The notes under the pieces were generated by a model. It was given only the letters and a program-made list of their open reading frames with translations. It had not been told where the DNA came from and ran no database searches. This document shows positions 29,084-44,847 of a stretch of 44,847 nucleotides of DNA, in pieces. This DNA comes from Candidatus Crickella caballi (GTDB lineage: Bacteria; Bacillota; Clostridia; Peptostreptococcales; Anaerovoracaceae). A program made the translations under genes and the position numbers. Positions within the stretch are counted from its first letter, which is position 1, and every line of letters starts with the position of its first letter. The stretch spans positions 1 to 44,847 of the forward strand of contig JAGHUV010000010.1 of assembly GCA_018064665.1 (NCBI GenBank), written 5' to 3'.

Positions 29084-30634
29084 ATGAAAAATAAAATTCT
29101 TGTTATAGACTTTGGCGGACAGTACAACCAGCTGGTTGGACGTAGAGTCAGAGAATGCAATGTCTACAGTGAGATCTATTCATACAGGATCGGCGTAGAT
29201 AAAATACGTGAGATGGATCCTAAAGGGGTCATCCTCACAGGCGGACCTAACAGCTGCTATCTCGAGGGTGCACCTCAGCTTGGCAGAGAGCTTTTCGAGA
29301 TGGGAATTCCTGTACTCGGACTCTGCTACGGTGCACAGATGATGCAGTATGTTATGGGCGGAAATGTAGGAATTGCACCGATCAGAGAGTATGGTAAGAC
29401 AAAGACTTACTTCAATACAGAGTCACCATTGTTCAAGGGCCTTCCTGAGGAGAGCATCGTGTGGATGAGCCACACTGATTACATCTCGGAGATGGCGCCG
29501 GGATTTGAGATCATTGCTCACACGGCTGACTGCCCTGTTGCAGCCTGCCAGAACAAGGACATGGGCCTTTATGCAATCCAGTTCCACCCTGAGGTTCTTC
29601 ATACAGAATACGGCAAGCAGATCCTCAGCAATTTCATTCTTGATATCTGCGCCTGCGAGCCTGACTGGAGAATGGATTCATTCGTTGAAGATTCGATCAC
29701 TGCGATCAGAGAGAAGGTTGGAGACGGCAAGGTTCTCCTCGCTCTTTCAGGCGGTGTTGATTCTTCAGTAGCAGCAGGTCTGCTCTCAAGAGCCATAGGA
29801 AACCAGCTTACATGCGTATTCGTAGACCATGGTCTCATGCGTAAAAACGAGGGCGATGAGGTAGAGGCTGTATTCGGACCGGAGGGCGATTTCGACCTCA
29901 ACTTCATTAGAGTGAATGCAGCAGAGAGATACTATGCTAAGCTTGCAGGTGTAACAGATCCTGAGAGAAAGCGTAAAATTATCGGCGAGGAGTTCATCAG
30001 GATCTTCGAGGAGGAGTCAAAGAAGATCGGTGCAGTAGATTTCCTTGCTCAGGGCACGATATATCCGGATGTTGTAGAGTCCGGGCTCGGCGGCGAGTCG
30101 GCTGTGATCAAGTCACACCACAATGTAGGCGGACTTCCTGATTTTGTAGACTTCAAGGATATCATCGAGCCGCTGAGAGACCTCTTCAAGGATGAGGTTC
30201 GCAAGGTAGGTCTGGAGCTTGGACTTCCGGCTGAGCTTGTATTTAGACAGCCTTTCCCGGGCCCAGGTCTCGGTATCAGAATTATCGGTGAGGTAACGGG
30301 CGACAAGGTTAAGATTGTTCAGGATGCAGACTTCATCTACAGAGATGAAATCGCAAAAGCAGTAAAAGAAGGTATCATGGAAGAGCCTAATCAGTACTTC
30401 GCAGCTCTCACCAACGTGAGATCTGTCGGCGTTATGGGTGACTACAGAACCTACGACTATGCAATTGCACTCAGAGCAGTAAAGACGATCGACTTCATGA
30501 CAGCAGAGGCTGCAGACATTCCTGCGAGCGTGCTCCAGAGGGTTATGTCAAGAATCATCAACGAAGTTAACGGAGTTAACAGAGTATTCTATGATATTAC
30601 GAGCAAACCGCCGGGGACGATTGAGATGGAATAA
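29084..30634 (+). CDS. guaA: GMP synthase (glutamine-hydrolysing)
   Basis: A 516-residue enzyme that aminates XMP to GMP. The N-terminal class I glutaminase has C81 (GLCYGAQ) with H168 and E170 (FHPEV); the ATP-pyrophosphatase P-loop is LSGGVDSS (221-228); the C-terminal dimerisation domain ends [11 protein letters not shown]. The last 14 coding bases form the left attachment site of the integrated element, and the protein remains complete. Rejoining across the element would change only the stop codon, TAA to TAG. Confidence 0.97.
30620..30633 (+). repeat. attL core
   Basis: ATTGAGATGGAATA, identical to 44592-44605. It covers the last codons of guaA (Ile-Glu-Met-Glu) and the first two bases of the stop. 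Confidence 0.85.
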
Positions 30635-30650
30635 CGAAATATAAAGAAAC

Positions 30651-30698
30651 AAATCCCGAAAACACTGGAATTTCAATGTTCTCGGGATTTTTAATTTT
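30651..30698 (+). terminator. Element-borne terminator for guaA
   Basis: AAATCCCGA (30651-30659) pairs with TCGGGATTT (30682-30690), with a further AACA/TGTT inner stem, followed by TTAATTTT. It lies inside the element, so the element supplies guaA with a replacement terminator. Its A-rich left flank may also stop the leftward transcript of the HEPN-like gene. Confidence 0.75.
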
Positions 30699-30703
30699 GA
30701 TTT

Positions 30704-30721
30704 TGACGCACTTTTGACGCA
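30704..30721. repeat. Left TGACGCA pair (candidate integrase arm sites)
   Basis: TGACGCA at 30704-30710 and 30715-30721, 11 bases start to start, or about one helical turn. The same pair recurs near the right end at 44473-44490 in the same orientation and spacing. Confidence 0.6.
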
Positions 30722-30743
30722 TTGAGCATAGAATAATGCTATT

Positions 30744-31550
30744 TTATCGTTGCAATCCATATGATAATTGATTCTCCTCTTTGAAACAATCTTCATAATT
30801 TTTTATAGATTCTTGAGTTAAAAAGCAAGGTCCGGCCATGTTGGTGTTGCCTAGATACTGTTCTTCTCCATCAACAACTATCTTTATAGGATTCTTCATA
30901 GCTTTTTCATAATCCGGTTTGATTAGACGAAAATGCCTCATAGCCTTTAATTCACCGAGAGTATCGGGGTGTTTTCCCTCAAGTTTGTGGAGTGTATTTT
31001 TTATATAATCAAATACATATTTACCAAAGCCAAGAGCTTCTTCTTTAGTCGCCAATTTGCCTTTGTGAACGACTTGATTTCTTAAGGCAACTTTATTTTT
31101 GTCGAGGAAAGGTGGTAGTTCATTAAAATGTATTGAATACAGAAAGTAAAATGCCCCAAGCTGCCTTTCTGATTGATTGCTGACTTCTTTCCAGAGCTTA
31201 TTAAAGTCCAAATTCATCGAATTGCTCAACATCATTATCTCAATCATATATTCAATAAAACGTTCTAGTGCAGCATTGTATGTTGAAATAGATTCCCGAT
31301 AATAACCATCCATTATGCAATATGTTGCTTGCTGAAAAAGTAATTCATATAACTCAAAGCTTATTGTTAGTCGTGTGAGATGCCCTTTTTCACAAGTGAA
31401 TTCTAAATATGGCCATTTGTCTAACTCTATAGTTGGATATTCCCAATACGGGTAAGAGGGAATATACGGTAGGGTTTTATCCTTATCTTGTTCTTGCCCA
31501 TTGCTGAAACATTGCATACATGAAACTTTTATTTTCAAGGGGTTCACCAC
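30744..31550 (-). CDS. Zinc-ribbon plus HEPN-like protein of unknown function
   Basis: A 268-residue protein. C11/C14 and C53...H57 look like a zinc ribbon at the N-terminus. The central part is strongly helical, and ALRNQVVHKGKLATKEEALGFGKYVFDYI contains an R157-N158-x3-H162 motif, the R-X4-H pattern of HEPN domains, many of which are RNases. It starts at a GTG just seven bases after the stop of the XRE regulator and shares its leftward transcript. The pairing of a DNA-binding repressor with a HEPN-like partner resembles a toxin-antitoxin or defence module, but this is inference; the second in-frame GTG at 31547 could be the start. Confidence 0.6.
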   Translation of the reverse strand: MVNPLKIKVSCMQCFSNGQEQDKDKTLPYIPSYPYWEYPTIELDKWPYLEFTCEKGHLTRLTISFELYELLFQQATYCIMDGYYRESISTYNAALERFIEYMIEIMMLSNSMNLDFNKLWKEVSNQSERQLGAFYFLYSIHFNELPPFLDKNKVALRNQVVHKGKLATKEEALGFGKYVFDYIKNTLHKLEGKHPDTLGELKAMRHFRLIKPDYEKAMKNPIKIVVDGEEQYLGNTNMAGPCFLTQESIKNYEDCFKEENQLSYGLQR

Positions 31551-31557
31551 CTTACTT

Positions 31558-31992
31558 CTATTTTTTGTTATATATCACAGACTCAGGATAAGTGTTTTTC
31601 CACTCTTCATATTCTTCTTTTGTCATGGAGCCATCCTTTGATTTAGAGAAGACCTCACCCCAATCTGAAAGTCTGCTTCTTAAATCCGATCCTGCAGGGA
31701 ATGTAATGTATGTGGCTCCCGGTTCGCATACAAGTGTTGCACCATACTCTTCTTCCAATGCAAATAGAGTGTGCATTACTCCAATATATGATTTAATGTT
31801 AGGATTGGAAATAGCAAATGGGCTGATGTCGAGTGCCCCTGCAATTGCACCAATCTGTTTGTCAGATGGTGTTCTGTTTCCAAGTTCATAGTTTCTAATT
31901 GCCGGTTCACTTAATCCAGCCATTTTAGCAAGTTCCTTCTGGGAAAGACCTTTCTCAGTGCGGAACTTTCTTATTTTCTCACCTATTTTCAT
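31558..31992 (-). CDS. XRE-family repressor
   Basis: A 144-residue regulator with an N-terminal Cro/C1-type helix-turn-helix (IGEKIRKFRTEKGLSQKELAKMAGLSEPAIRNYELGNRTPS, about residues 2-44). The C-terminal part has no motif I know. I chose the ATG at 31992, preceded by GAGGTG at eight bases; a GTG at 32001 would add three residues. It is transcribed away from the integrase operon, and three near-identical palindromes lie between the two. It is the probable master repressor of element excision and transfer and also controls itself and the HEPN-like gene. Confidence 0.85.
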   Translation of the reverse strand: MKIGEKIRKFRTEKGLSQKELAKMAGLSEPAIRNYELGNRTPSDKQIGAIAGALDISPFAISNPNIKSYIGVMHTLFALEEEYGATLVCEPGATYITFPAGSDLRSRLSDWGEVFSKSKDGSMTKEEYEEWKNTYPESVIYNKK

Positions 31993-32022
31993 GACAGTCA
32001 CCTCAATTCCTTTCTATTAACC

Positions 32023-32051
32023 ATTATAACAGCAACAGTTCAATAATGAAA
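32023..32051 (-). promoter_or_regulatory. Leftward promoter for the repressor
   Basis: On the minus strand: TTTCAT (32051-32046), a 17-base spacer and a perfect TATAAT (32028-32023). The first operator lies over the -35 box. Confidence 0.6.
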
Positions 32052-32131
32052 CATTTTTTGCACTAAGGGGTTGGCAGTTCAATAATGAACTGATAAACTA
32101 ACCGTGGTCAAAACAGTTCAAAAACGAACTG
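32036..32131. promoter_or_regulatory. Three palindromic operators at exact 39-bp intervals
   Basis: Sites at 32036-32053 (CAGTTC-AATAAT-GAAACA, right arm degenerate), 32075-32092 (CAGTTC-AATAAT-GAACTG) and 32114-32131 (CAGTTC-AAAAAC-GAACTG). The starts are exactly 39 bases apart. Site 1 overlaps the -35 of the leftward promoter, site 2 the spacer of the rightward promoter and site 3 the downstream transcribed start. A related copy lies near attR (44527-44540). The XRE repressor encoded next door is the obvious ligand. Confidence 0.75.
32071..32099 (+). promoter_or_regulatory. Rightward promoter for the xis-int operon
   Basis: TTGGCA (32071-32076), 17-base spacer, TAAACT (32094-32099). The middle operator fills the spacer, so bound repressor would block RNA polymerase. 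Confidence 0.5.
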
Positions 32132-32168
32132 AGAGGAATAATAAATCTGAACAAAGGAGGTCACTAGA

Positions 32169-32360
32169 ATGATAAATAACGAAAAAAGCGTAATCAGAGC
32201 ACCGGAGATTGCAGAAGTTCTGGAAGTATCCGAAGGATATGCCTACAGATTAATCAGACAGCTTAACAAGGAACTGCAGGAACAGGGCTTCCATACTGTA
32301 TGCGGCAGAGTCAGCAGAGCGTATTTCGAAGAAAAATGCTGCTACAAGAAAAGTGTTTAG
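32169..32360 (+). CDS. Excisionase-like small HTH protein
   Basis: A 63-residue protein with a single helix-turn-helix (RAPEIAEVLEVSEGYAYRLIRQLNKELQEQGF). Small proteins of this pattern commonly precede the integrase in Firmicute elements and probably direct excision or regulate it; I infer that role. An AAAGGAGG site precedes the ATG. The integrase start lies 13 bases past the stop. Confidence 0.7.
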   Translation: MINNEKSVIRAPEIAEVLEVSEGYAYRLIRQLNKELQEQGFHTVCGRVSRAYFEEKCCYKKSV

Positions 32361-32373
32361 GGGAGGTGAACCA

Positions 32374-33465
32374 ATGGCAGTACGTAAAGAAAAAAACAAA
32401 AATACCTGGTACGTGCAGACTTCATTCGTTAACTATATGGGTGAACGAAAGAGAACTACCAAAAGAGGATTTCGTACAAAGAGAACTGCTCTTGAATGGG
32501 AGGAAGAGTTTAAAAGGAGCAATAGCGGCTGCAAGGACATGACCTTAAACTCCCTGTATGAACGGTATAAAGAGGACAATGCTACTAAGATCAGGATTAC
32601 AACCTGGGATAACAAGAATAACATTGTTGAAACAAAGATTCTTCCATTTCTCGGGAACAGAAAGATTAATGAGATTACTCCATCTGACATCCGTGCGTGG
32701 CAGAATCAGATTAAGGCTATGAAGAAGAAAAACGGTAAGCCGTATGCACCGTCATACTTGCGTACTATCAACAATCAACTCAATGCATTGTTTCACCATG
32801 CTAAGAGATTCTACGGTCTAAAAGATGTTCCGACCGAAGTGGCAGGATCAATGGGGTCAACAAAGTGTGAGGAAAAAGAATTCTGGACATTTGAAGAGTA
32901 CAGCAAATTTCTCAAAGAGGTTGCCAACAAACCTGAATCGTACTATGGGTTTGAGCTTCTGTACTGGTGCGGGCTAAGAATCGGTGAACTGCTGGCTCTT
33001 ACTCCTGCAGATTTCAACTTCGATAACAATACCTTTGAAGTGTGCAAGTCATACTCTGTCACTTCAGAAGGGCCTGTAATAGGACCTACCAAGACAGATA
33101 ATGATAGAACTGTTCTTATGCCGGAATTCATTGCTAAGGAAATAAGGATGTTTATAGATTCATTTTATGAGATTGGAGACAATGACCGAATCTTTTCAAG
33201 AAGTGATACCTTCTATCGTCATGAACTGGAGCGAGGTTCTAAAGCAGCCGGAGTAAAGATTCTTTCACCACACGAACTAAGGCATTCACACATAACCAAT
33301 TTGATGTCAATGGGATTCAATGCGGTTGAAATCGGCAACAGAGTTGGCCAGGAATCTGAAAAGATTACCTACAACTATGCACACTCAATGCCGGCCAATC
33401 AGAAGAAGATGATAAATGCACTCGACATGGTAAGAAAGGAGATGGATGATGAGCAAGAAGAATAA
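32374..33465 (+). CDS. int: Tyrosine site-specific integrase
   Basis: A 363-residue recombinase that inserts and excises the element at guaA. An N-terminal arm-DNA-binding domain (TWYVQTSFVNYMGERKRTTKRGF) is followed by a SAM-like core-binding domain (about 55-150) and the catalytic domain. Visible catalytic residues: R202 (CGLRIGEL), K240 (GPTKTDNDR), H300 and R303 (SPHELRHSH) and nucleophile Y335 (ITYNYAH). The second histidine position reads Q325 (RVGQES), a tolerated change. I chose ATG 32374 because GGGGAGGTG lies just before it; the frame extends seven codons further upstream. The last bases overlap the next gene. Confidence 0.93.
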   Translation: MAVRKEKNKNTWYVQTSFVNYMGERKRTTKRGFRTKRTALEWEEEFKRSNSGCKDMTLNSLYERYKEDNATKIRITTWDNKNNIVETKILPFLGNRKINEITPSDIRAWQNQIKAMKKKNGKPYAPSYLRTINNQLNALFHHAKRFYGLKDVPTEVAGSMGSTKCEEKEFWTFEEYSKFLKEVANKPESYYGFELLYWCGLRIGELLALTPADFNFDNNTFEVCKSYSVTSEGPVIGPTKTDNDRTVLMPEFIAKEIRMFIDSFYEIGDNDRIFSRSDTFYRHELERGSKAAGVKILSPHELRHSHITNLMSMGFNAVEIGNRVGQESEKITYNYAHSMPANQKKMINALDMVRKEMDDEQEE

Positions 33466-34924: not shown

Positions 34925-35968
34925 ATGGACAGGAACATTTTTATCCAAGAAAGCAAGCTTCGAAATGTAAGCGGACGCATAACCTACATCTCATCAACGG
35001 CTAAGCAGGAAAATCTATATGCCGTATATGAGACTACAGAGCGCCCGTTCTGGAATAAGCTTGCAAAGCAAAATCGAAAGGATTTTGTCAAGAGCGGCAG
35101 CAGTGGTGAATGTATTGAGGCAAGAGAATTAATCATCGCACTGCCGGAAGAACTGCAGCAGTATGAACCAAATGAACTGCTGCGTGAGTATGTTGATAGC
35201 TTCAAAAGCAGATACGGAGTAGAGTGCATTGCAGCACTTCACCATAACAAACGAAAGACAAACTATCACATTCATCTGATATTTTCAGAAAGAAAACTGC
35301 TGGACGAACCGATAAGAAAGATTGCAACACGCAACATGTTCTATGATGAAAGTGGCAAGCATGTACGGACAAAGAAAGAGATTTTATCCTCCGATGGTGA
35401 ACTGAAACCGGGCTGTAGGAAAGTAAAAAAAGGTGAAGTGTTCGAAGAAAACTTCTTTGAAAAGAAAAATCCTTTCTTCAAATCCAAAGTGTTTACTGAC
35501 GAGGTAAAGGAATTCTATGCCGGAAAGATGAATGAAAAACTGAAAGAAGCTGATTACAAAATGCAAACATTCGATAAAGACGGACCATATCTTCCTCTGA
35601 AAAAGATTGGCAAGAACAATCCGAATGAGAAGTTCATTAAAGAAAACAACAAGCAGCGACTGATATGGAATAAGAATGTGAGCATTGCATTAGGTGGCGG
35701 GATTCCGGCAGAAATACTAAAAGAAGTAAAGCGTGTTGAGATAATTGAACCGATAAAAGAAGCAATGAAGAACCCTGAGACTGCAGGAATGGTAGTTCAT
35801 ATAATAGCAAGAGCAATCAAAACGCTGATAAGATTTGTGTCGGATTTAATCAGATATAACGCAGTTGATAAAGCCGTTCCCGGAACTGAAAAGTTCTATG
35901 AAGCACTTGATTACAGCAGAGCACCGATGAGAATTAGAAACAGTAAAGAAAAAGAGTGGGAGAGATAG
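34925..35968 (+). CDS. MobA/MobL-family relaxase
   Basis: A 347-residue MobQ-type relaxase that nicks one strand at oriT and leads it to the recipient. The N-terminal domain has a candidate nucleophile tyrosine Y21 (GRITYISSTAKQ) and the HUH-type metal site HHNKRKTNYHIHL (H106/H107, H115, H117). The C-terminal 120 residues have no visible primase or helicase domain, so it is a minimal relaxase. An AGGAGGTG site precedes the ATG. No coupling protein or secretion genes accompany it, so transfer would need a co-resident conjugative element. Confidence 0.88.
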   Translation: MDRNIFIQESKLRNVSGRITYISSTAKQENLYAVYETTERPFWNKLAKQNRKDFVKSGSSGECIEARELIIALPEELQQYEPNELLREYVDSFKSRYGVECIAALHHNKRKTNYHIHLIFSERKLLDEPIRKIATRNMFYDESGKHVRTKKEILSSDGELKPGCRKVKKGEVFEENFFEKKNPFFKSKVFTDEVKEFYAGKMNEKLKEADYKMQTFDKDGPYLPLKKIGKNNPNEKFIKENNKQRLIWNKNVSIALGGGIPAEILKEVKRVEIIEPIKEAMKNPETAGMVVHIIARAIKTLIRFVSDLIRYNAVDKAVPGTEKFYEALDYSRAPMRIRNSKEKEWER

Positions 35969-36200: not shown

Positions 36201-37268
36201 ATGGAGTACTTGACGGCTAAAGAAGTAGCAGAAAAATGGGGGATTTCCCAGAGGAGAGTTGCGGTGCTTTGCTCAGAAGGCAGAGTAGCTGAAGCAACAA
36301 TGCTAGGCAACATGTGGGTAATTCCTAACAATGCTGAAAAACCGGAAGATGGAAGAGCTTTGCGCTATGAAGAAAAACCAAGCAGTAAGGTAAAGCCATT
36401 TTTAAAATGGGCAGGTGGTAAAGGACAACTGTTATCAGAAATACAGCAGCACTATCCATTTGATGAAAATATAAACAAGTATGCTGAACCTTTTGTGGGA
36501 GGTGGCGCAGTCCTGTTTGATATATTAGATAAGTACGATTTAAAAGAGGTCTATATTAATGATATTAATGAGGATCTAATAAATGCATACAGATGTGTAA
36601 AGGCTTATCCTGAAGAATTGATTTCGCTACTCAAAACAATGCAGGAAGAATATATTCCTCGAGATAATGAATCAAGAAAGGAATACTATCTTGAGCAGAG
36701 GAACCTGTTTAACACTATAAAAGTATCATATGATGAATCAAGCAATCTGACAAAGGCAGCGTTAATGATTTTCTTAAATAAGACATGTTTCAATGGTTTA
36801 TATAGGGTAAACAGGAAAGGTGAATTCAATGTGCCTATGGGTTCATACAAGAACCCCCTGATTTGTGATGAATCTAATCTGCGTAATGTATCGCAGAAGC
36901 TGCAGAAAGTAAGGATTTCCTGTGGAGATTATAAGAGTTCTTATGACTTCATAGATAGCAGTACCTTTGCATATTTTGACCCTCCATACAGACCGTTAAC
37001 TGATACAGCCAGTTTCACTTCATATACGGAAAATGGATTTGGAGATAATGAGCAGAAAGAACTGGCCGAATTTGTTAAACGACTGGATGAGAAGGGTGCA
37101 AAAGTTGTTGTCAGCAATTCGGATCCTAAAAATGTGGATTCAAAAGATGAATTCTTTGACAACATATACTCGTATCTGAACGTTGCAAGAGTAACAGCCA
37201 ACCGAATGATAAACAGTAAAGCAAAGTCAAGAGGAAAAATAAACGAATTGCTTATTACAAATTGTTAG
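36201..37268 (+). CDS. DpnM-like Dam adenine methyltransferase with N-terminal HTH
   Basis: A 355-residue enzyme. Residues about 67-352 follow M.DpnII (DpnM): motif X FLKWAGGK (67-74), motif I AEPFVGGGAV (95-104), the NFNGLYRVN-like stretch CFNGLYRVNRKGEFNVP (about 196-212), motif IV FDPPY (259-263), and the C-terminal SRGKINELLITN. It should methylate adenine in GATC and protect the host. Residues 1-45 (MEYLTAKEVAEKWGISQRRVAVLCSEGRV) are an added excisionase/MerR-like helix-turn-helix absent from DpnM, which may let it regulate its own promoter. AAGGAGG precedes the ATG. Confidence 0.92.
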   Translation: MEYLTAKEVAEKWGISQRRVAVLCSEGRVAEATMLGNMWVIPNNAEKPEDGRALRYEEKPSSKVKPFLKWAGGKGQLLSEIQQHYPFDENINKYAEPFVGGGAVLFDILDKYDLKEVYINDINEDLINAYRCVKAYPEELISLLKTMQEEYIPRDNESRKEYYLEQRNLFNTIKVSYDESSNLTKAALMIFLNKTCFNGLYRVNRKGEFNVPMGSYKNPLICDESNLRNVSQKLQKVRISCGDYKSSYDFIDSSTFAYFDPPYRPLTDTASFTSYTENGFGDNEQKELAEFVKRLDEKGAKVVVSNSDPKNVDSKDEFFDNIYSYLNVARVTANRMINSKAKSRGKINELLITNC

Positions 37269-37277
37269 GAGAAGTTT

Positions 37278-37808
37278 ATGGAAATAAGAAGAGGACAGCA
37301 ACTTATCGAAAATGGCACTAAACAAGCAATAATAGAGTTTGAATTCGAACGCTATGAAATATTCGTGTTCCAAGGAAATCTATCGGAGTTCGATATCGTA
37401 ATAAAGTATAAAAAAGATGGAAGCCGAATTAGAACTCCTAAGCATATCCATTGGGTAGTTGATGTGCTTATGAAGATGCAAGGAAACGAAGAACTGACGA
37501 AACGATTCCTCCACATGATCCATATTTGCTGGAATCATTGTACTCCTCTCGAAAACAACGACTATGACACTCTGAAAGAACTGATACTACGCGGCGAACG
37601 AGTTGTAAAAATTGAAGAGTATGAAGAATTGAACGTTTATGGGGAGTATGACGTGGAATTTCTGTATGTGCTGATGGAACTGCTGGCGGTGCAGGAAAAA
37701 ACAAACCGTGCAGATGCATATATGTTTGGAAGCATTATTGAACAGTTATTAGAGGTGGAGCGAGATATTTTTAAGATAGTATCCACAGCAGGTTTTAGAG
37801 GAAGATGA
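37278..37808 (+). CDS. Unknown protein within the DpnII-like operon
   Basis: A 176-residue protein I do not recognise. It begins MEIRRGQQLIENGTKQAIIEFEFERYEIFVFQGNLSEFDIVIKYKK, a beta-rich start, and continues with a helical, acidic second half. No catalytic motif is visible. It lies nine bases after the methylase and one base before the endonuclease, so it is co-translated with them. That position suggests a control or accessory protein for the restriction system, but the sequence gives no direct support. Confidence 0.6.
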   Translation: MEIRRGQQLIENGTKQAIIEFEFERYEIFVFQGNLSEFDIVIKYKKDGSRIRTPKHIHWVVDVLMKMQGNEELTKRFLHMIHICWNHCTPLENNDYDTLKELILRGERVVKIEEYEELNVYGEYDVEFLYVLMELLAVQEKTNRADAYMFGSIIEQLLEVERDIFKIVSTAGFRGR

Positions 37809-37809
37809 T

Positions 37810-38679
37810 ATGAACAATAGAGATTTTGACAGTTGGCTGAGCAAATTTCGTCTTAGTATTTCAAGATATGACTACTATGTGAATTTTGATAAAGTTGTTG
37901 AAAATGTCGAGAAATACAAGATTGAATTAAACATTTTGAATTCATTAATTGGGTCGAAGAATATTGAAGATGATTTTGAGAAAATAATTGAAAAGTATCC
38001 GGAAACATTAAAATGCATTCCGGTTCTTTTGGCTGTTAGAGGAAATGAAATTTACGCACAGGACGAAGCTGGTGCCTTTATTTACAAATTTAATGAGCCA
38101 AGTTGTTCGATGGAACAGTATAAGTATTTTATGAGAAAGACGGGCTTGTTCGATCTGCTGGCAAATCATATTGTAAATAATTTGATAGATTATGTTCTTG
38201 GTGTTGAAACAGGTCTTGATTCTAATGGACGCAAAAATAGAGGTGGACATCAGATGGAAGACTTGGTGGAAAGCTACATAGAGAAAGCAGGATTTGTGAG
38301 AGAAGATAATTATTTTAAGGAAATGTACCTAGCCGATGTAGAAAAGAAGTGGAACATAGATTTATCTGCATTATCAAACCAGGGAAAAGCAAGAAAACGA
38401 TTTGATTTCGTTGTCAAAACAGACAACATGATATATGCAATAGAAACAAACTTTTATGGAGGAACCGGAGGCGGTTCAAAACTAAATGAAACTGCACGAA
38501 GTTACAAAATGCTTTCACAGGAAGCTGATACTGTTGATGGATTTACATTTGTGTGGTTTACAGATGGAACAGCGTGGAGAAGTGCTAGGGGTAACTTAAG
38601 AGAAACATTCGATGTAATGGATTATATCTACAGCATTGATGATATGGAAAACGGGATAATGGAAAGGATTTTTATTTAA
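37810..38679 (+). CDS. Type II restriction endonuclease, DpnII/MboI family
   Basis: A 289-residue homologue of R.DpnII, which cuts unmethylated GATC. Conserved stretches with the enzyme I know: NILNSLIGSKNIEDDF (41-56), GLFDLLANHIVNNLIDYV (112-129), LDSNGRKNRGG (136-146), KRFDFVVK (197-203) and SKLNETARSYKM (223-234). Candidate metal-binding acids are D199 and E212 (FDFVV ... AIETNFY), with Asn in place of the usual final Lys, as I recall for DpnII itself. Length equals DpnII (288). It overlaps the next methylase gene by one base. Confidence 0.93.
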   Translation: MNNRDFDSWLSKFRLSISRYDYYVNFDKVVENVEKYKIELNILNSLIGSKNIEDDFEKIIEKYPETLKCIPVLLAVRGNEIYAQDEAGAFIYKFNEPSCSMEQYKYFMRKTGLFDLLANHIVNNLIDYVLGVETGLDSNGRKNRGGHQMEDLVESYIEKAGFVREDNYFKEMYLADVEKKWNIDLSALSNQGKARKRFDFVVKTDNMIYAIETNFYGGTGGGSKLNETARSYKMLSQEADTVDGFTFVWFTDGTAWRSARGNLRETFDVMDYIYSIDDMENGIMERIFI

Positions 38680-39428
38680 TGGCAAAAAAGAAGATAACGA
38701 AGTGGGAACCTGATGATTTTGAATTAGAAATGACAACTGTATGGAGTTTTCCGAACAGAGGTGATTGGGCAACTCATGATGCGAAGTGGAGGGGCAATTG
38801 GTCTCCATTCATTCCAAGAAACATCATGTTAAGATATTCAAAGGAAAACGATCTGGTGTTGGATCAATTTGCCGGAGGCGGAACTACTTTGGTAGAAGCA
38901 AAGCTATTGAGCAGGAATATTATAGGCGTTGATGTAAATGATGTTGCATTGGAAAGATGCAGAGAAAAAATAGATTTTGAGCATGAAGGGGCTAACGGAG
39001 AAGTCCAGCTATGTAAAGGTGATGCAAGAAATCTGGACTTTTTAGAGGATGAAAGTATCGATTTGATATGCACACATCCACCTTATGCTGACATAATTCA
39101 ATATAGTGAGGATATAGAAGAAGACTTATCTCATTTAAAGGTTAAAGACTTTCTGGAAGAAATGAAAAAGGTTGCTGCGGAAAGCTATCGTGTTCTGAAA
39201 AAGGACAAGTTCTGTGCGGTACTCATGGGTGATACCAGGCAGAAAGGTCATATGATACCTATGTCCTTTGATGTGATGAAAATCTTTCAGGATGCTGGAT
39301 TCAGACTTAAAGAATTGATCATTAAAGAACAGCATAACTGTCGGGCAACAGGATACTGGAAAACCAATAGTGTTAAATACAATTTCCTATTAATAGGGCA
39401 TGAATATTTGTTTGTGTTTAGAAAGTAG
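38679..39428 (+). CDS. Second DNA methyltransferase, non-DpnA motif order
   Basis: A 249-residue SAM-dependent amino-methyltransferase. Motif I is DQFAGGGTT (62-70), followed by GVDVN; motif IV is THPPY (132-136). In DpnA the DPPY motif comes first and motif I last, so this is not a DpnA orthologue although it takes its place in the operon. The N-terminal SFPNRGDWATHDAKWRGNWSPFIPRN is a distinctive block I have seen in other DNA methylases but cannot assign to a target. It may methylate GATC, or another site and so widen protection. It overlaps the endonuclease stop. Confidence 0.8.
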   Translation: MAKKKITKWEPDDFELEMTTVWSFPNRGDWATHDAKWRGNWSPFIPRNIMLRYSKENDLVLDQFAGGGTTLVEAKLLSRNIIGVDVNDVALERCREKIDFEHEGANGEVQLCKGDARNLDFLEDESIDLICTHPPYADIIQYSEDIEEDLSHLKVKDFLEEMKKVAAESYRVLKKDKFCAVLMGDTRQKGHMIPMSFDVMKIFQDAGFRLKELIIKEQHNCRATGYWKTNSVKYNFLLIGHEYLFVFRK

Positions 39429-39446: not shown

Positions 39447-41576
39447 ATGGGAGAGATTAAAATCACTATAGAAAACTGCAATAATATTTCACACGGTGAA
39501 TTTACTTTAGAGGAAAATAAACTCAATATTAAATATGGGATGAACGGAACAGGGAAATCGACATTATCAACAGCGATTTATCTGATAAGCCAGGGAAAGG
39601 ATTTAGTTGAGTTAAAGCCGTTTGGCAGTGGTGATGAAGTTGTCCCTGCAATTAACCTGAGTAAGAACCTACCTGTAGTAAAGGTGTTTAACGAAGAATT
39701 TGTCAATAATATGGTGTTTAAGGAAAGTAAAGTGATTGACAATGCTTTTGATGTGTTTATCAGAACACCAGACTATGAACAAAGAAGAGCTGAATTAGAT
39801 GGTCGATTGGCTAAATTGAAGGTTGATGTAGATACAAAACCTCAGATACTCCAATTAAGAAGTGATATTTCCGCCTTTACAGGGAAATTAGAATTGAATG
39901 CGGCTGGAAGCAGCATTAAGAACAATACGAATTATAAGGCTATCATAAAGAAAAACAATGTGTACAATATTCCAGAAAAATTGAAAAAGTATAGCCCAAT
40001 AATATCAGATGATCAAATTTGCATTAGTTGGATTGATTGGAAGTCAAAAGGTGATTCATTTGATACAAAGGGAATATGTCCTTACTGTTCAGATAAATTA
40101 AACACAGAATTTGACGAAGAAAAGAAAACATTTAAAGAGACATACAAAAAGTCAGATGCACAGAATTTGAAAAATATGCTGGATTTGTTTGAAAATTTTC
40201 ACAAATATATGCCAGATGAGAAATATAGTTCAATTATTGCATGTATAAAGGAAGAAAAAGAAGAGAATGCAATAAATGCGATTCTAATAGCATTTATGAA
40301 TGAATATAAGTATATATCAAATCAACTTAACAAGATTTCGTCATTTGATAAAAATGTATTTAGACAATCTGACATTAATGATATTGACAAAGTATTAGAG
40401 AACATGAAATTAGAAACAACAATTTTTAATTTCTTTTCTAATGCCGAATTTTTCGCAATAGTTGATTTGATTAATAATTCTATTGAAGAATTAAGAAAAG
40501 AAACTCAGGATATTAAAGCTGCTTTTGGTAAGTTACAAAGTGTGCTGAAGAAAACAATTACAACTTCACAAAAGGATATAAATTATTTTCTTGAATCTGC
40601 TGGAATAGCTTATCGGGTAGGAATTAATTTAGAAGAAAGCGGACAAGCAATAGCAACATTACAATATGTGCATGATAAGGAATTAGTGCAAGTTGATAGA
40701 ATTAGGAATCATTTGAGTTGGGGCGAGCGAAATGCATTTTCATTAGTGTTGTTTATGTTTTACGCTATTAGTGAGGATGCGGAACTTGTGGTTTTGGATG
40801 ATCCAATTTCCTCTTTTGATACAAATAAAAAATATGCGATAATTCATAGAATGTTTTCTAAACAAAGTGGTGCTTTGCCAAGAAGTTTTTATAAAAAAAC
40901 AGTATTAATGTTGACTCACGATTTTGAACCGATAATTGATTTTGGCGTGGTAGGAAAGTTACCAGAAGAGGCTTTGAATACAAAGTTTATAAAAAATAGT
41001 AATGGTATATTGAAGGAATTGGAAATTGAATTCAAACAAGATATTAAGCCAGTAGTTCAGGCGTTGGCAAGTTATGTTAAAGATGATACTTTATGTGTTG
41101 TTCACCGGATCGCTTTTTTGCGAAAATATTATGAACATAATGGCATAGAAAATCATTTGGATGCCTATAATGTTCTATCGTCTTTGATTCATGGTCGTGA
41201 CAAGTGCAGATATGTAGATAATACTGACATGTTACAGAGCGAGGTGCAAGCAGGATGTACAGAAATAAGAAAGTGGATAGATGATTTTGATTACTCAAAA
41301 TTGCTAACTGAGATATACAATGAAGAAAAGCTATCAGAACTATACTTTGCAGAAAGCAATGAGTATCTACAAATCCAACTATTTAGGGCACTTTTTGAGG
41401 TTAATCCAAGCAAAGAGATTAAGGAAGAGGATGTGTTGGTAAAATTTATAAATGAGAGTTATCATATTGAGAACGACTATGCATATTACCTTGATATGAT
41501 GAAATTTGAAACTGTTCCAGAATATATCGTTAATGCTATTGCTGAATATATGAAGAAAACCTATGCTAAAACATAA
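39447..41576 (+). CDS. RloC/PrrC-like ATPase, candidate anticodon nuclease
   Basis: A 709-residue ABC-type ATPase of the AAA_13 group. Walker A is GMNGTGKST (31-39), the signature LSWGER (423-428), Walker B LVVLDDP (447-453) and the H-loop LTHD (489-492). A single CPYC (211-214) in the coiled-coil middle resembles the RloC/Rad50 zinc hook. The C-terminal segment holds R559-x3-E563 and H582 (FLRKYYEHNG ... LSSLIHG), the spacing pattern of the PrrC/RloC R-x3-E...H nuclease triad. Such proteins cleave tRNA anticodon loops on phage attack. It follows the restriction genes by 18 bases. The nuclease assignment is inference. Confidence 0.72.
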   Translation: MGEIKITIENCNNISHGEFTLEENKLNIKYGMNGTGKSTLSTAIYLISQGKDLVELKPFGSGDEVVPAINLSKNLPVVKVFNEEFVNNMVFKESKVIDNAFDVFIRTPDYEQRRAELDGRLAKLKVDVDTKPQILQLRSDISAFTGKLELNAAGSSIKNNTNYKAIIKKNNVYNIPEKLKKYSPIISDDQICISWIDWKSKGDSFDTKGICPYCSDKLNTEFDEEKKTFKETYKKSDAQNLKNMLDLFENFHKYMPDEKYSSIIACIKEEKEENAINAILIAFMNEYKYISNQLNKISSFDKNVFRQSDINDIDKVLENMKLETTIFNFFSNAEFFAIVDLINNSIEELRKETQDIKAAFGKLQSVLKKTITTSQKDINYFLESAGIAYRVGINLEESGQAIATLQYVHDKELVQVDRIRNHLSWGERNAFSLVLFMFYAISEDAELVVLDDPISSFDTNKKYAIIHRMFSKQSGALPRSFYKKTVLMLTHDFEPIIDFGVVGKLPEEALNTKFIKNSNGILKELEIEFKQDIKPVVQALASYVKDDTLCVVHRIAFLRKYYEHNGIENHLDAYNVLSSLIHGRDKCRYVDNTDMLQSEVQAGCTEIRKWIDDFDYSKLLTEIYNEEKLSELYFAESNEYLQIQLFRALFEVNPSKEIKEEDVLVKFINESYHIENDYAYYLDMMKFETVPEYIVNAIAEYMKKTYAKT

Positions 41577-41733: not shown

Positions 41734-42933
41734 TTGAAACAAAAGCAAGGAGCTTGTGGTATCGAAAGATCAAAGAACATGAATCAAACTGTTGCAATTG
41801 AAATTTTGCATGATATGTATTTTATTACTAAGTTATTTGAAATCCAGAGTCGAATGGATGATAAATGGCTACGAGATTACTATACGAAAATTGCTGTACC
41901 ATATCTGTCGATAGTATTGCATGAGTGTTTGCAAGCAGGAGTGCTTGACAAAAAAGAATCGGATAAGGATGCTATGAAGCTTCTAAAATCAATTCGTCAA
42001 AGGGTGGTTAAACTTGCTCCCACTGGAAGCAGTGATTCCATCAAACATTTTATGGATACGATGGGGATTGATTTTGAGCATTATTGCTTTGATCTTCAAA
42101 TTGCATTGAATGAGTTCAATCAAAGAGACCTATATGATATTAGCTTTACATATTATGATCTTTTACAGGGAACCGAAGATATGAAGATTTTTGATTCTCT
42201 GATAAAGATACCATTGCAAATCGTGGAAAGCATTCTAACATCTGAACCACTATGTAAACATAGAACTGAAATAATCTTATTGTTTCAAAATATTTATTCA
42301 GACATAGCTAATATAGTTTCAGCAAAAATTTCGCTACATAAATATCCTTATGCAAGTAGCGTTTTTTTCAAACATTCTAAATTTGATAAAGATGACAAGG
42401 TGGCAGTTCTATACTATTACACATTGGTTAAGCAGGGACTGTTGATAGACGTACTGATTCCAGAAAGCGTAGAAGAGGCTATAGATATCTTTGATACTGT
42501 GAGAGCAAAATGCAAATTTAGAGCGGTTATAATCGAGAATATTGGTCAGTTCTTAAAGTGTGCAAGGACGTCTTTGACAGAGGAGATGTGTCATAAGATT
42601 AATGCGGCTATGGATTCGAATTTTTTCTCGAGAAACAGATCGATTAAGAATAATATTCATTACAAGACGATTACGGAATTTGATAAAACCGATATTCAAA
42701 AAATATATATACAGCAAGAATTATACTTGAAAACAGTGTTGGACATTTTTGAGGATAAGATTAAATATAACGTGGGATGGGGATACAAGATTATACGGTT
42801 TATTGCTGATAAGACAGATGAGACAATGATTGAAGTTAGAAAAATGAATCCAGAACGGAAGAAGTTAGAGGATGTTTCAATTGAAGAATGGGAAGGCGCA
42901 AGAACACGTTTAAGCATAAAGAATAGAAAATAA
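41734..42933 (+). CDS. Unknown helical protein, HEPN-like motif (gene 1 of a pair)
   Basis: A 399-residue protein with no family I recognise. It is helical and charged throughout with no membrane segment. R302-SIKNNI-H309 (followed by Y310) fits the R-X6-H form of the HEPN motif. It starts at TTG 41734, nine bases after GAGGTG; Met16 (41779) is an alternative. It lies 157 bases past the RloC-like gene, in a gap that holds no promoter I could define, and is followed after 15 bases by a second unknown gene. Codon use is visibly AT-rich. Function is not known; position argues for defence. Confidence 0.6.
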   Translation: MKQKQGACGIERSKNMNQTVAIEILHDMYFITKLFEIQSRMDDKWLRDYYTKIAVPYLSIVLHECLQAGVLDKKESDKDAMKLLKSIRQRVVKLAPTGSSDSIKHFMDTMGIDFEHYCFDLQIALNEFNQRDLYDISFTYYDLLQGTEDMKIFDSLIKIPLQIVESILTSEPLCKHRTEIILLFQNIYSDIANIVSAKISLHKYPYASSVFFKHSKFDKDDKVAVLYYYTLVKQGLLIDVLIPESVEEAIDIFDTVRAKCKFRAVIIENIGQFLKCARTSLTEEMCHKINAAMDSNFFSRNRSIKNNIHYKTITEFDKTDIQKIYIQQELYLKTVLDIFEDKIKYNVGWGYKIIRFIADKTDETMIEVRKMNPERKKLEDVSIEEWEGARTRLSIKNRK

Positions 42934-42948
42934 TTTGAAAGGTATCCA

Positions 42949-44049
42949 TTGGAAGCGAGAATTGTAATGGAGATGAATACTAATCTTGAAAAAGCAATCG
43001 AAATAAAACTGATACAGGGGGATGTGGAGACAGTGCTATCTTTAATGCACACTGAGCATGATCCAATTTTTGCCTTAGCGATTATGCCTTACTATGCTTT
43101 GTTTGTACAGTCATGTCAAGAATACTGGGAAGATTCTATCCCTGACGATGATTTTTCAAAGCAGGTAAAAGATATTAGAAATTATATTAAAGCATTTGAT
43201 GTAGGGTTGAGTAAATCGAAGAAAAGAGTAAAAATAGTAGACTCTCAGCAAGACCAAGAATTCACTTCAATGCTTCGATTTGATTTCATGAAATCATGGA
43301 ATATCCATTACAATTTGGGTTCTTATTGGACTGGGGATAGGCATGCTATTGGAAACACTCAAATGTACGCAGATTTTCTGAGAATTGAAAACATAAATAA
43401 TAGAGTTGCTAGAGAAAAAATGCGAGATTTTGGTTATAAGATGGGAAAATATGTTGCATCAGTAAAATCTGTTCTTGAACAAATAACCACTCCAGCAAAG
43501 GTGAAAAGAGTAAGGTCCGGAATTACAATAGATTACTATTGTGATTTAAATACAAACAAGAAAAACACTTTCTTTCTTTTCGAGGAAAAAGAACTTAATC
43601 TGTTCTTCTTAAATCTAGTAAGTAATTTGAATTTTGTTAAATATATTCTGCGGCCTTTGCTTACGGACACCAATGCTTGGCTCTTTAGAGTGGAATACGT
43701 AGTGACATATTATACATACAAAGCGTTGTGGAGATTAAATAATTATTGTGATAATAATAAAGATATAGTAGTAGATATGACGGATTTGATTGCGGCTATT
43801 GAAATGAACACGGCTATTTTTCAATCGAAGTTTCGCAATTGTATGATGCATTATGGGATACAAAATCAAGGGGTGGTATCTATAGATAATATTGAGAAAC
43901 CATTATTCGGTATGGTTGAAACATGTTTTGAAGGCATGGAGTTTAGCGTATATCAATCAAAGTTAAGGGACTTGGAAGACAGAATGATAGAATATCTTGA
44001 GGGATATTTCAATACAGATAAAATCATTCTACAAAAGCTTGAGAGATAA
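42949..44049 (+). CDS. Unknown helical protein, HEPN-like motif (gene 2 of a pair)
   Basis: A 366-residue protein I do not recognise. The C-terminal region has KFRNCMMHYGI, a canonical R296-N297-x3-H301 HEPN motif followed by tyrosine, then a hydrophilic stretch and a long final helix. The partner gene shows the same order (R...H-Y, then a helix) near its own C-terminal third. The N-terminal 100 residues are acidic and helical; a Lys-rich patch lies at 88-96. The TTG start has GAAAGG upstream at a good distance; Met7 or Met9 are alternatives. The pair probably forms one operon and perhaps one complex. Confidence 0.6.
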   Translation: MEARIVMEMNTNLEKAIEIKLIQGDVETVLSLMHTEHDPIFALAIMPYYALFVQSCQEYWEDSIPDDDFSKQVKDIRNYIKAFDVGLSKSKKRVKIVDSQQDQEFTSMLRFDFMKSWNIHYNLGSYWTGDRHAIGNTQMYADFLRIENINNRVAREKMRDFGYKMGKYVASVKSVLEQITTPAKVKRVRSGITIDYYCDLNTNKKNTFFLFEEKELNLFFLNLVSNLNFVKYILRPLLTDTNAWLFRVEYVVTYYTYKALWRLNNYCDNNKDIVVDMTDLIAAIEMNTAIFQSKFRNCMMHYGIQNQGVVSIDNIEKPLFGMVETCFEGMEFSVYQSKLRDLEDRMIEYLEGYFNTDKIILQKLER

Positions 44050-44351
44050 GAGTGGCATAATTTGACTTGCTTTTTTAAATACAAATAGATAGCGAGAAAA
44101 GCTTAAATTTCAAGGGATGCTGACTTGCTTTTAACAAATCAGCAAGAGATTTTCAAGATTAAATCTACAGAATATGGGACTTCTTTATCAGATTTATGAA
44201 ATTGTTAGACAGTGTTGTTAATTGAGTTGGTTGCATTATTGTGAATTACTTACTAATTGCTTTTAAAGAAGCAAGCGACAAGCAATTATGAAAAAAGTTT
44301 TGGTGAAAAGCAGATAAACGACACTAGGAGCCGAAATGATAGTTCTCAGAC

Positions 44352-44370
44352 TTGCAACACATTTGCAACA
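44352..44370. repeat. TTGCAACA direct pair, 11-bp period
   Basis: Two exact TTGCAACA copies at 44352 and 44363. Spacing equals that of the TGACGCA pairs but the sequence differs, so it may be an arm site for another recombinase or a relic. Confidence 0.45.
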
Positions 44371-44472
44371 ATGCCTTTGAAAACCCTTGCTTTCCAAGGG
44401 CTTCAACTATCAAAGCGTTAATCTCGATTACCAAAGAGGTAACTGAATTACCAAATGAAAGCACATTGTTCA

Positions 44473-44490
44473 TGACGCACATTTGACGCA
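44473..44490. repeat. Right TGACGCA pair (candidate integrase arm sites)
   Basis: TGACGCA at 44473-44479 and 44484-44490, the same 11-base spacing and orientation as the left-end pair, about 100 bases inside attR. Confidence 0.6.
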
Positions 44491-44526
44491 TCGAACTTTA
44501 TGAAATGAAATCAAACAGGCAAAACC

Positions 44527-44540
44527 GTTCAGCAACGAAC
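44527..44540. promoter_or_regulatory. Repressor-like operator next to attR
   Basis: GTTC-AGCAAC-GAAC followed by TG: the same arms and six-base centre as the three operators by the XRE gene (GTTC-N6-GAAC). In the excised circle it would lie about 140 bases from the left TGACGCA pair. Confidence 0.5.
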
Positions 44541-44591
44541 TGATTTGAAGCTTGAAATCATAGGCATTGAGCCTGTTCGAAAAGAAGAAAA

Positions 44592-44605
44592 TTGAGATGG
44601 AATAG
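44592..44605 (+). repeat. attR core
   Basis: ATTGAGATGGAATA, identical to attL. The next base is G, so an empty site would read guaA through to a TAG stop. Confidence 0.85.
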
Positions 44606-44655
44606 GTCCATCTGGTTTGCAGGTGACGTTATAAACAACATAAATATAGGTATTT

Positions 44656-44684
44656 AAGGCACTCTCGAAAGAGAGTGCCTTTTG
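44656..44684 (+). terminator. Terminator beyond attR
   Basis: AAGGCACTCTC-GAAA-GAGAGTGCCTT followed by TT. It is either the original guaA terminator, displaced 14 kb by the insertion, or the replacement terminator of a second element. Confidence 0.8.
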
Positions 44685-44687
44685 CTG

Positions 44688-44707
44688 TGGTATGAAATTG
44701 GTATGAA
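44688..44707. repeat. TGGTATGAA direct pair beyond attR
   Basis: TGGTATGAA at 44688-44696 and 44699-44707, 11 bases apart, 83 bases past the attR core. Order and spacing (core, terminator, pair) copy the left end of the element. Confidence 0.5.
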
Positions 44708-44847
44708 TTATGATGCATTGACATGGCGGCTTTCTACAGAGAGTAGGTAACCGCTTAATAACATGGTGCCTTTAACACCGGGATCTCCAATGAGATAATC
44801 TAGAGTGAATCAGACTAATTTAGGTTTAGACTTTTTCGACTTTTTCG

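Follow-up and report, generated by a model that had tools for sequence, protein, structure and literature searches.

Do two adjacent genes near the right-hand end of a 44,847-nucleotide stretch of Candidatus Crickella caballi DNA (GenBank assembly GCA_018064665.1, contig JAGHUV010000010.1; the whole stretch is hereafter the window) encode the two parts of one defence system? The initial annotation described these genes, here called A and B, as open reading frames (ORFs) of 399 and 366 codons separated by 15 bases, neither of a recognised family, and proposed that they form a two-gene HEPN system in a defence island. The reading frames and their spacing on one strand were found as described, and neither protein gave a credible family match in Pfam, NCBIfam, PADLOC or PHROGs (best for A, KCTD_C, expectation value (E) 0.012; best for B, phrog_23793, E 0.036). 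The two genes fared differently in the analysis reported here. We conclude that gene B probably encodes a self-contained and, it appears, single-gene abortive-infection protein, in which a C-terminal HEPN RNase domain lies behind a sensing or silencing N-terminal half of about 210 residues, and that gene A is cargo of the element, an orphan outside any conserved system with B.

Results

Gene B belongs to a family with an invariant HEPN-type motif

Relatives of B were found at 18 loci other than the window, mostly in Clostridia (L002-L006, L009, L010, L012, L033-L041 and L043). Five of them (L002-L006) came from GTDB contigs scanned with B as the sole query, two from the plasmid collection (one in Jeotgalibaca porci, the other in a Listeria record of chromosome size, both also retrieved with the L034 protein as query), and one (L012) from a viral contig. 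Among 391 genomes of the class, a profile search detected the family in 3 others, two of which (G1012 and G1021) were retained; the same kind of search in the family of G1012, one Clostridia family, gave matches in 9 of 348 genomes, a count that includes G1012 itself, already known to carry the B family, one short fragment, and a second sighting of L003 (Mordavella) as G1479. No match was obtained in phage records with gene B as query, in plasmids or phages with the distant member P0011, or in viral contigs with the L038 protein. The gene is broken at L035 (two ORFs) and L037 (an internal stop), fragmentary at L040 and L043, and partial at L012. Three further candidates were set aside: at L018 the motif pattern lies on the opposite strand of a 647-residue ORF and was taken as chance, the match at L008 falls by chance in an ORF read as ComEC-like, and L016, a 43-residue frame, was left out of the count. 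This small family has no name in the libraries scanned; the literature searches covered HEPN, restriction-modification (R-M) and defence in general, and none was aimed at the family itself.

Each of the two proteins contains a single RX4-6H motif, R302-x6-H309-Y in A and R296-N-x3-H301-Y in B, at the positions given in the initial annotation. The RX4-6H pattern by itself is no evidence, since among 5000 shuffles of each protein 71% (A) and 53% (B) contained it; when the following tyrosine was included, these values were 5.5% and 4.1%. What distinguishes the motif of B is its conservation. The alignment comprised 15 sequences, 14 of them full-length, and the partial L012 protein was excluded from the counts. 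Although identity to B falls as low as 17%, D25, P47, R77, K81, G124, N136, T137, D199, Y250, R296, H301 and G321 are kept in 14 of 14, and F295, N297, M299 and Y302 in 13 of 14. Because R296 and H301 are invariant, the motif of B is real and not an accident of composition; the initial annotation had named a lack of conservation of these two residues as grounds for abandoning its reading, and in B they are retained in every full-length member. Members of the HEPN group have a conserved Rx4-6H with a polar residue after the arginine, as B does with N297, and both this residue and the spacing are typical of HEPN RNases (PMC3710099; this source, PMC11087260 and PMC12255303 are cited from parts of their text). 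The conservation of R296 and H301 is that expected of an active site with HEPN RNase spacing. No acidic residue is invariant within residues 213-353.

Fold comparisons point to a HEPN domain without significance

In a low-confidence model of B (mean predicted local distance difference test score (pLDDT) 42), the motif stands at the far end of the third helix in the C-terminal domain, with H301 just past that helix, an arrangement that resembles the published place of the HEPN motif at the end of helix 3 or the start of the helix 3-4 loop (PMC3710099, section 7). When folds were ranked against this model, HEPN toxins came out on top, although none of the matches was significant: rows 1, 2, 4, 7 and 8 of the VIA-align output are HEPN chains (3jrt is named as HEPN in PMC3710099), rows 34 and 38 are Las1 and AbiV, and all of these matches lie within model residues 207-362. 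Of known HEPN families, Csx1_HEPN alone was matched in the profile scan, by 1 of 15 members of the B family (E 0.1); PDC-M13A was likewise matched by 1 of 15 (E 0.0061). No ATPase domain was matched in B or its family in the library scans. B is predicted to be a standalone HEPN-type RNase of the abortive-infection kind, a reading for which the motif and the genomic context argue well and the fold less so.

An alternative is that B is no nuclease but a helical protein, either structural or binding RNA or nucleotides, that uses RNxMxHY in another role. Such a protein would fit the low-confidence model, the fold and profile matches that fall short of significance, and the placement of 8 of the 12 invariant residues in the N-terminal half, which is possibly a sensor or docking part. 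We nevertheless regard it as unlikely, given that the arginine and histidine are strictly conserved with exact HEPN spacing in a fast-diverging family, and that B is kept in defence company.

Neighbourhoods of B vary and are often rich in defence genes

Clear defence genes lie close to B at 10 of the 19 loci, the window included (Table 1); the neighbours were called by PADLOC or Pfam on chosen genes, L010, L012, L033 and L035-L038 were not counted, and the figure comes without a background rate. In L005 and L006, B occupies the gap that separates hsdS from hsdR. Read from GTG, the first start available to it, the gene shares 4 bases with the end of hsdS, and hsdR begins 12 bases downstream of it. 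The two loci are 75% identical in B and 74% in HsdR, whereas HsdS has diverged to 33%. The gene for PrrC, an anticodon nuclease, likewise lies between hsdS and hsdR. PrrC is described as embedded with hsdMSR (PMC3710099, section 10).

This arrangement raises the question of whether B is an accessory second line of R-M systems, silenced by the R-M complex as PrrC is and released by phage anti-restriction proteins. The position of B in L005 and L006, its retention there together with HsdR while HsdS changed, the R-M genes near B in the window, L002, L039 and L041, and the PrrC precedent are all in agreement with this idea, which is compatible with B being a self-contained abortive-infection RNase. 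However, the R-M types vary (type I, IIG and DpnII) and many loci show no R-M system, so that a fixed docking partner of B is unlikely; moreover, the hsdS-hsdR gap is also a general slot for defence cargo such as darTG2 (PMC12255303). We therefore consider a dedicated R-M accessory to be improbable. We give as little credence to a related and more specific proposal, made as one joint claim, that B is a portable HEPN guard whose N-terminal half (D25, P47, R77, K81, N136-T137 and D199) senses failure of the adjoining restriction or ATPase defence, one ATPase-free protein thereby filling the role that PrrC has alongside a type I enzyme.

Three observations were made beside relatives of B. Downstream of the L004 relative, a 229-residue ORF (L004:9220-9909) carries YRNGIHI and is a possible second HEPN-like protein; it had no credible Pfam match. 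At L040:1665-3901, the C-terminal B-family fragment directly follows the AbiH gene, inside a cluster read as sugar or envelope biosynthesis. Upstream of the L034 relative is a gene pair (L034:930-2757) matching NsnC at E 2.4e-54 and NsnB at E 2.8e-10, the latter being weaker than a mad8 match.

Gene A is not a constant partner of gene B

We searched for A with phmmer, without filters, in 1598 ORFs of 49 sequences that include the 18 other B loci. No relative of A was found at any of these 18, some of which are restricted by contig ends (only 354 bases lie to the right of B in L003, for example); the run returned A itself and one chance match (E 0.0016-0.0044), with nothing else below E 0.2. 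No relative of A was found in plasmids, phages or viral contigs, in 296 other genomes of the order and 196 others of the family (overlapping sets), or in 348 genomes of the family of G1012, apart from one match in G1401 (E 0.009) that falls in an 814-residue ORF read as a glycosidase and was attributed to chance. Since the order and family sets overlap and the GTDB contig scan was made for B, A may have relatives outside the sets searched. Because no relative was found, the motif of A may be fortuitous.

These results bear on the possibility that, in this lineage, A and B form a two-protein system, either of two HEPN-type subunits or of the RNase B with A as inhibitor or sensor. The common strand and 15-base gap, the almost equal G+C contents (0.334 for A, 0.333 for B) and the RX4-6HY motif near both C-termini would fit such a system, as would a weak N-terminal likeness: against the B profile A reached 5.3 bits over a collinear stretch, a score attained by 21 of 3000 shuffles. 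On the strength of the shuffles, A seemed a promising divergent paralogue of B. Among real proteins, however (213 distinct ORFs of at least 200 residues from the loci collected, 16 of them of the B family), A came only fourth among the 197 that are not of the B family, outscored by AbiH, by an unknown ORF and by one read as HsdR; the idea was dropped and no kinship is claimed. BLASTP, hhalign (E 0.45) and the hidden Markov model with real-protein controls likewise gave no significant similarity between A and B. Because pairing with A is not constant, the paired HEPN operon was rejected, and we consider a lineage-specific A-B system distinctly doubtful. A may be co-transcribed with B. A promoter scan found fewer sites than the shuffle mean.

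Since A is missing from all the other loci and the neighbours of B vary, the likeliest reading of B is a self-contained HEPN RNase that acts in abortive infection. Of the original proposal of a HEPN pair in a defence island, what stands is the part concerning B, with its conserved motif and defence neighbours. The initial annotation would have been refuted by homologues standing singly and outside defence contexts; those of B do stand without A, but often among defence genes.

The element that carries A and B

The window lies on contig C40 of a 1.45-Mb draft genome in 42 contigs. A 14-bp direct repeat is the sole exact word of at least 11 bases common to positions 30401-32400 and 43901-44847, and its left copy covers the last codons of guaA; this repeat likely marks an attachment site at the guaA 3' end. 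Because it joins the end of guaA with 44591-44604, a mobilizable element of about 14 kb has most likely inserted there, with A and B as its final genes. The initial annotation had placed A and B at the end of such cargo, after a restriction system and an ATPase that it called RloC-like; the relaxase and the DpnII-type system were recognised by family matches, and the ATPase is an AAA_13 protein that matches PDC-S06. guaA and an integrase ORF (32353-33465) were identified by reading their sequences, without a family search. A search with the flanks for the empty site of the element returned the contig-end repeat only.

A second HEPN-like protein lies at the left end of the element, beside a helix-turn-helix gene. 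This 268-residue protein (30744-31550, minus strand) has the motif LRNQVVHKG, matches PADLOC CARF_HEPN_mCpol at E 0.0016, and has relatives on 7 plasmid records (4 Paenibacillus, 3 others); hhalign of the B profile with it did not align the motif (E 0.065). The 101 bases that close the window (44747-44847) also open contig C1, and a same-genus genome has three copies at 96% identity, two of which lie close to the ends of contigs. The right end of the window is probably an assembly break at a repeat.

Table 1. Features of the window, and genes near B relatives at other loci (L numbers)
Feature	Position	Strand	Remarks
Gene B	42949..44049	+	366 aa from TTG; 360 aa from alternative ATG 42967, which agrees better with the starts of B relatives; probable RNase effector of a HEPN-type family
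N-terminal half of B, residues 1-212	42949..43584	+	8 of 12 invariant residues; model pLDDT under 50
C-terminal helical (HEPN-like) domain of B, residues 213-353	43585..44007	+	Predicted
FRNCMMHY motif of B, residues 295-302	43831..43854	+	Predicted RNase active site; conservation in 14 members
Gene A	41734..42933	+	399 aa from TTG; 384 aa from alternative ATG 41779; orphan; R302-x6-H309-Y unverified
Mobilizable element, 3' end of guaA	30620..44604		14-bp direct repeats ATTGAGATGGAATA at 30620-30633 and 44591-44604
MobA/MobL (MobQ-like) relaxase	34925..35968	+	PF03389 E 6e-14; MobQ E 1.3e-11, under its cut-off
DpnII-type restriction system	36201..39428	+	Family matches to Dam methylase, DpnII endonuclease, second methylase
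Dam methylase	36201-37268	+	DpnII-type system
176-aa ORF between Dam methylase and endonuclease	37278-37808	+	No known-family match in Pfam/NCBIfam/PADLOC scans
DpnII endonuclease	37810-38679	+	DpnII-type system
Second methylase	38679-39428	+	DpnII-type system
AAA_13 ATPase, PADLOC candidate defence protein PDC-S06	39447..41576	+	PF13166 E 2.4e-19; PDLC04889 E 1.1e-201
Type IIG enzyme, Gabija GajA/GajB	L002		PADLOC/Pfam
PtuA-like/RT-Toprim-like ATPase	L003		PADLOC/Pfam
ATPase	L004		Weak PDC-M49A match only; one more, weak locus beyond the 10 of 19
Type I methylase, restriction subunit	L005		PADLOC/Pfam
Type I specificity and restriction subunits	L006		PADLOC/Pfam
Type I genes	L009, 6.7 kb from B		Outside the 10 of 19
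NsnC-type gene	L034		PADLOC
Type I methylase	L039		PADLOC/Pfam
AbiH	L040		PADLOC/Pfam
Type IIG enzyme	L041		PADLOC/Pfam
AbiEi/AbiEii	L043		PADLOC/Pfam

Discussion

Among characterised systems, Tha-1 is the nearest model for B. B most likely acts in the manner of Tha, or of a PrrC stripped of its ATPase, and membership of either group is not claimed. Tha is a tail-activated HEPN anti-phage protein of Staphylococcus aureus prophages that is accompanied by an inhibitor, Ith; Tha-1 is a 301-residue RNase with a C-terminal HEPN domain, the motif R265NSIMH270, and a phage tail protein as trigger (PMC11087260). Like B, it is a single protein whose N-terminal part has no assigned fold and whose C-terminal part has a HEPN-type R-N-x-x-M-H. 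Alignment of the B profile with Tha-1 by hhalign covered the motif region only, placing FRNCMMH on HRNSIMH (E 0.12, not significant). Unlike B, Tha is 301 residues long, prophage-borne and found with Ith, and Tha-1 weakly matches DUF4145 (E 0.025) and HepT-like (E 0.029), neither of which B matches. A tblastn search of phages with Tha-1 yielded 16 records, all of them staphylococcal phages.

The anticodon nucleases PrrC and RloC resemble B in the hsdS-hsdR placement seen in L005 and L006 and, if B is an RNase as predicted, in the use of a HEPN RNase for defence (PMC3710099), but they have an N-terminal ABC-ATPase fused to the HEPN domain, for which B and its family show no match. The R-M-linked HEPN abortive-infection families AbiF/AbiD, AbiJ, AbiU2 and ApeA (PMC3710099, Table 1) resemble B in the kind of gene, the motif and the neighbourhoods, yet none of their Pfam or PADLOC models matches B or its family. 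The HepT/MntA toxin-antitoxin pairs (HEPN-MNT) gave the top-ranked, though not significant, fold matches for B (8xdj, 7bxo, 7ae9 and 7ae6); B is a larger protein, and reading of the adjacent genes revealed no MNT nucleotidyltransferase.

One could envisage that the N-terminal half of B senses infection or keeps the RNase silent, and that infection, perhaps by attacking or overwhelming the neighbouring restriction system, releases it. The freed RNase, with R296 and H301 in its active site, would then cut RNA, either tRNA or mRNA, and the cell would stop. If B is such a protein, Pfam, NCBIfam, PADLOC and PHROGs lack a whole HEPN defence family, one that sometimes fills the slot of PrrC and whose predicted active site is open to test by two substitutions, and the apparent two-gene system in the window would be an accident of cargo order.
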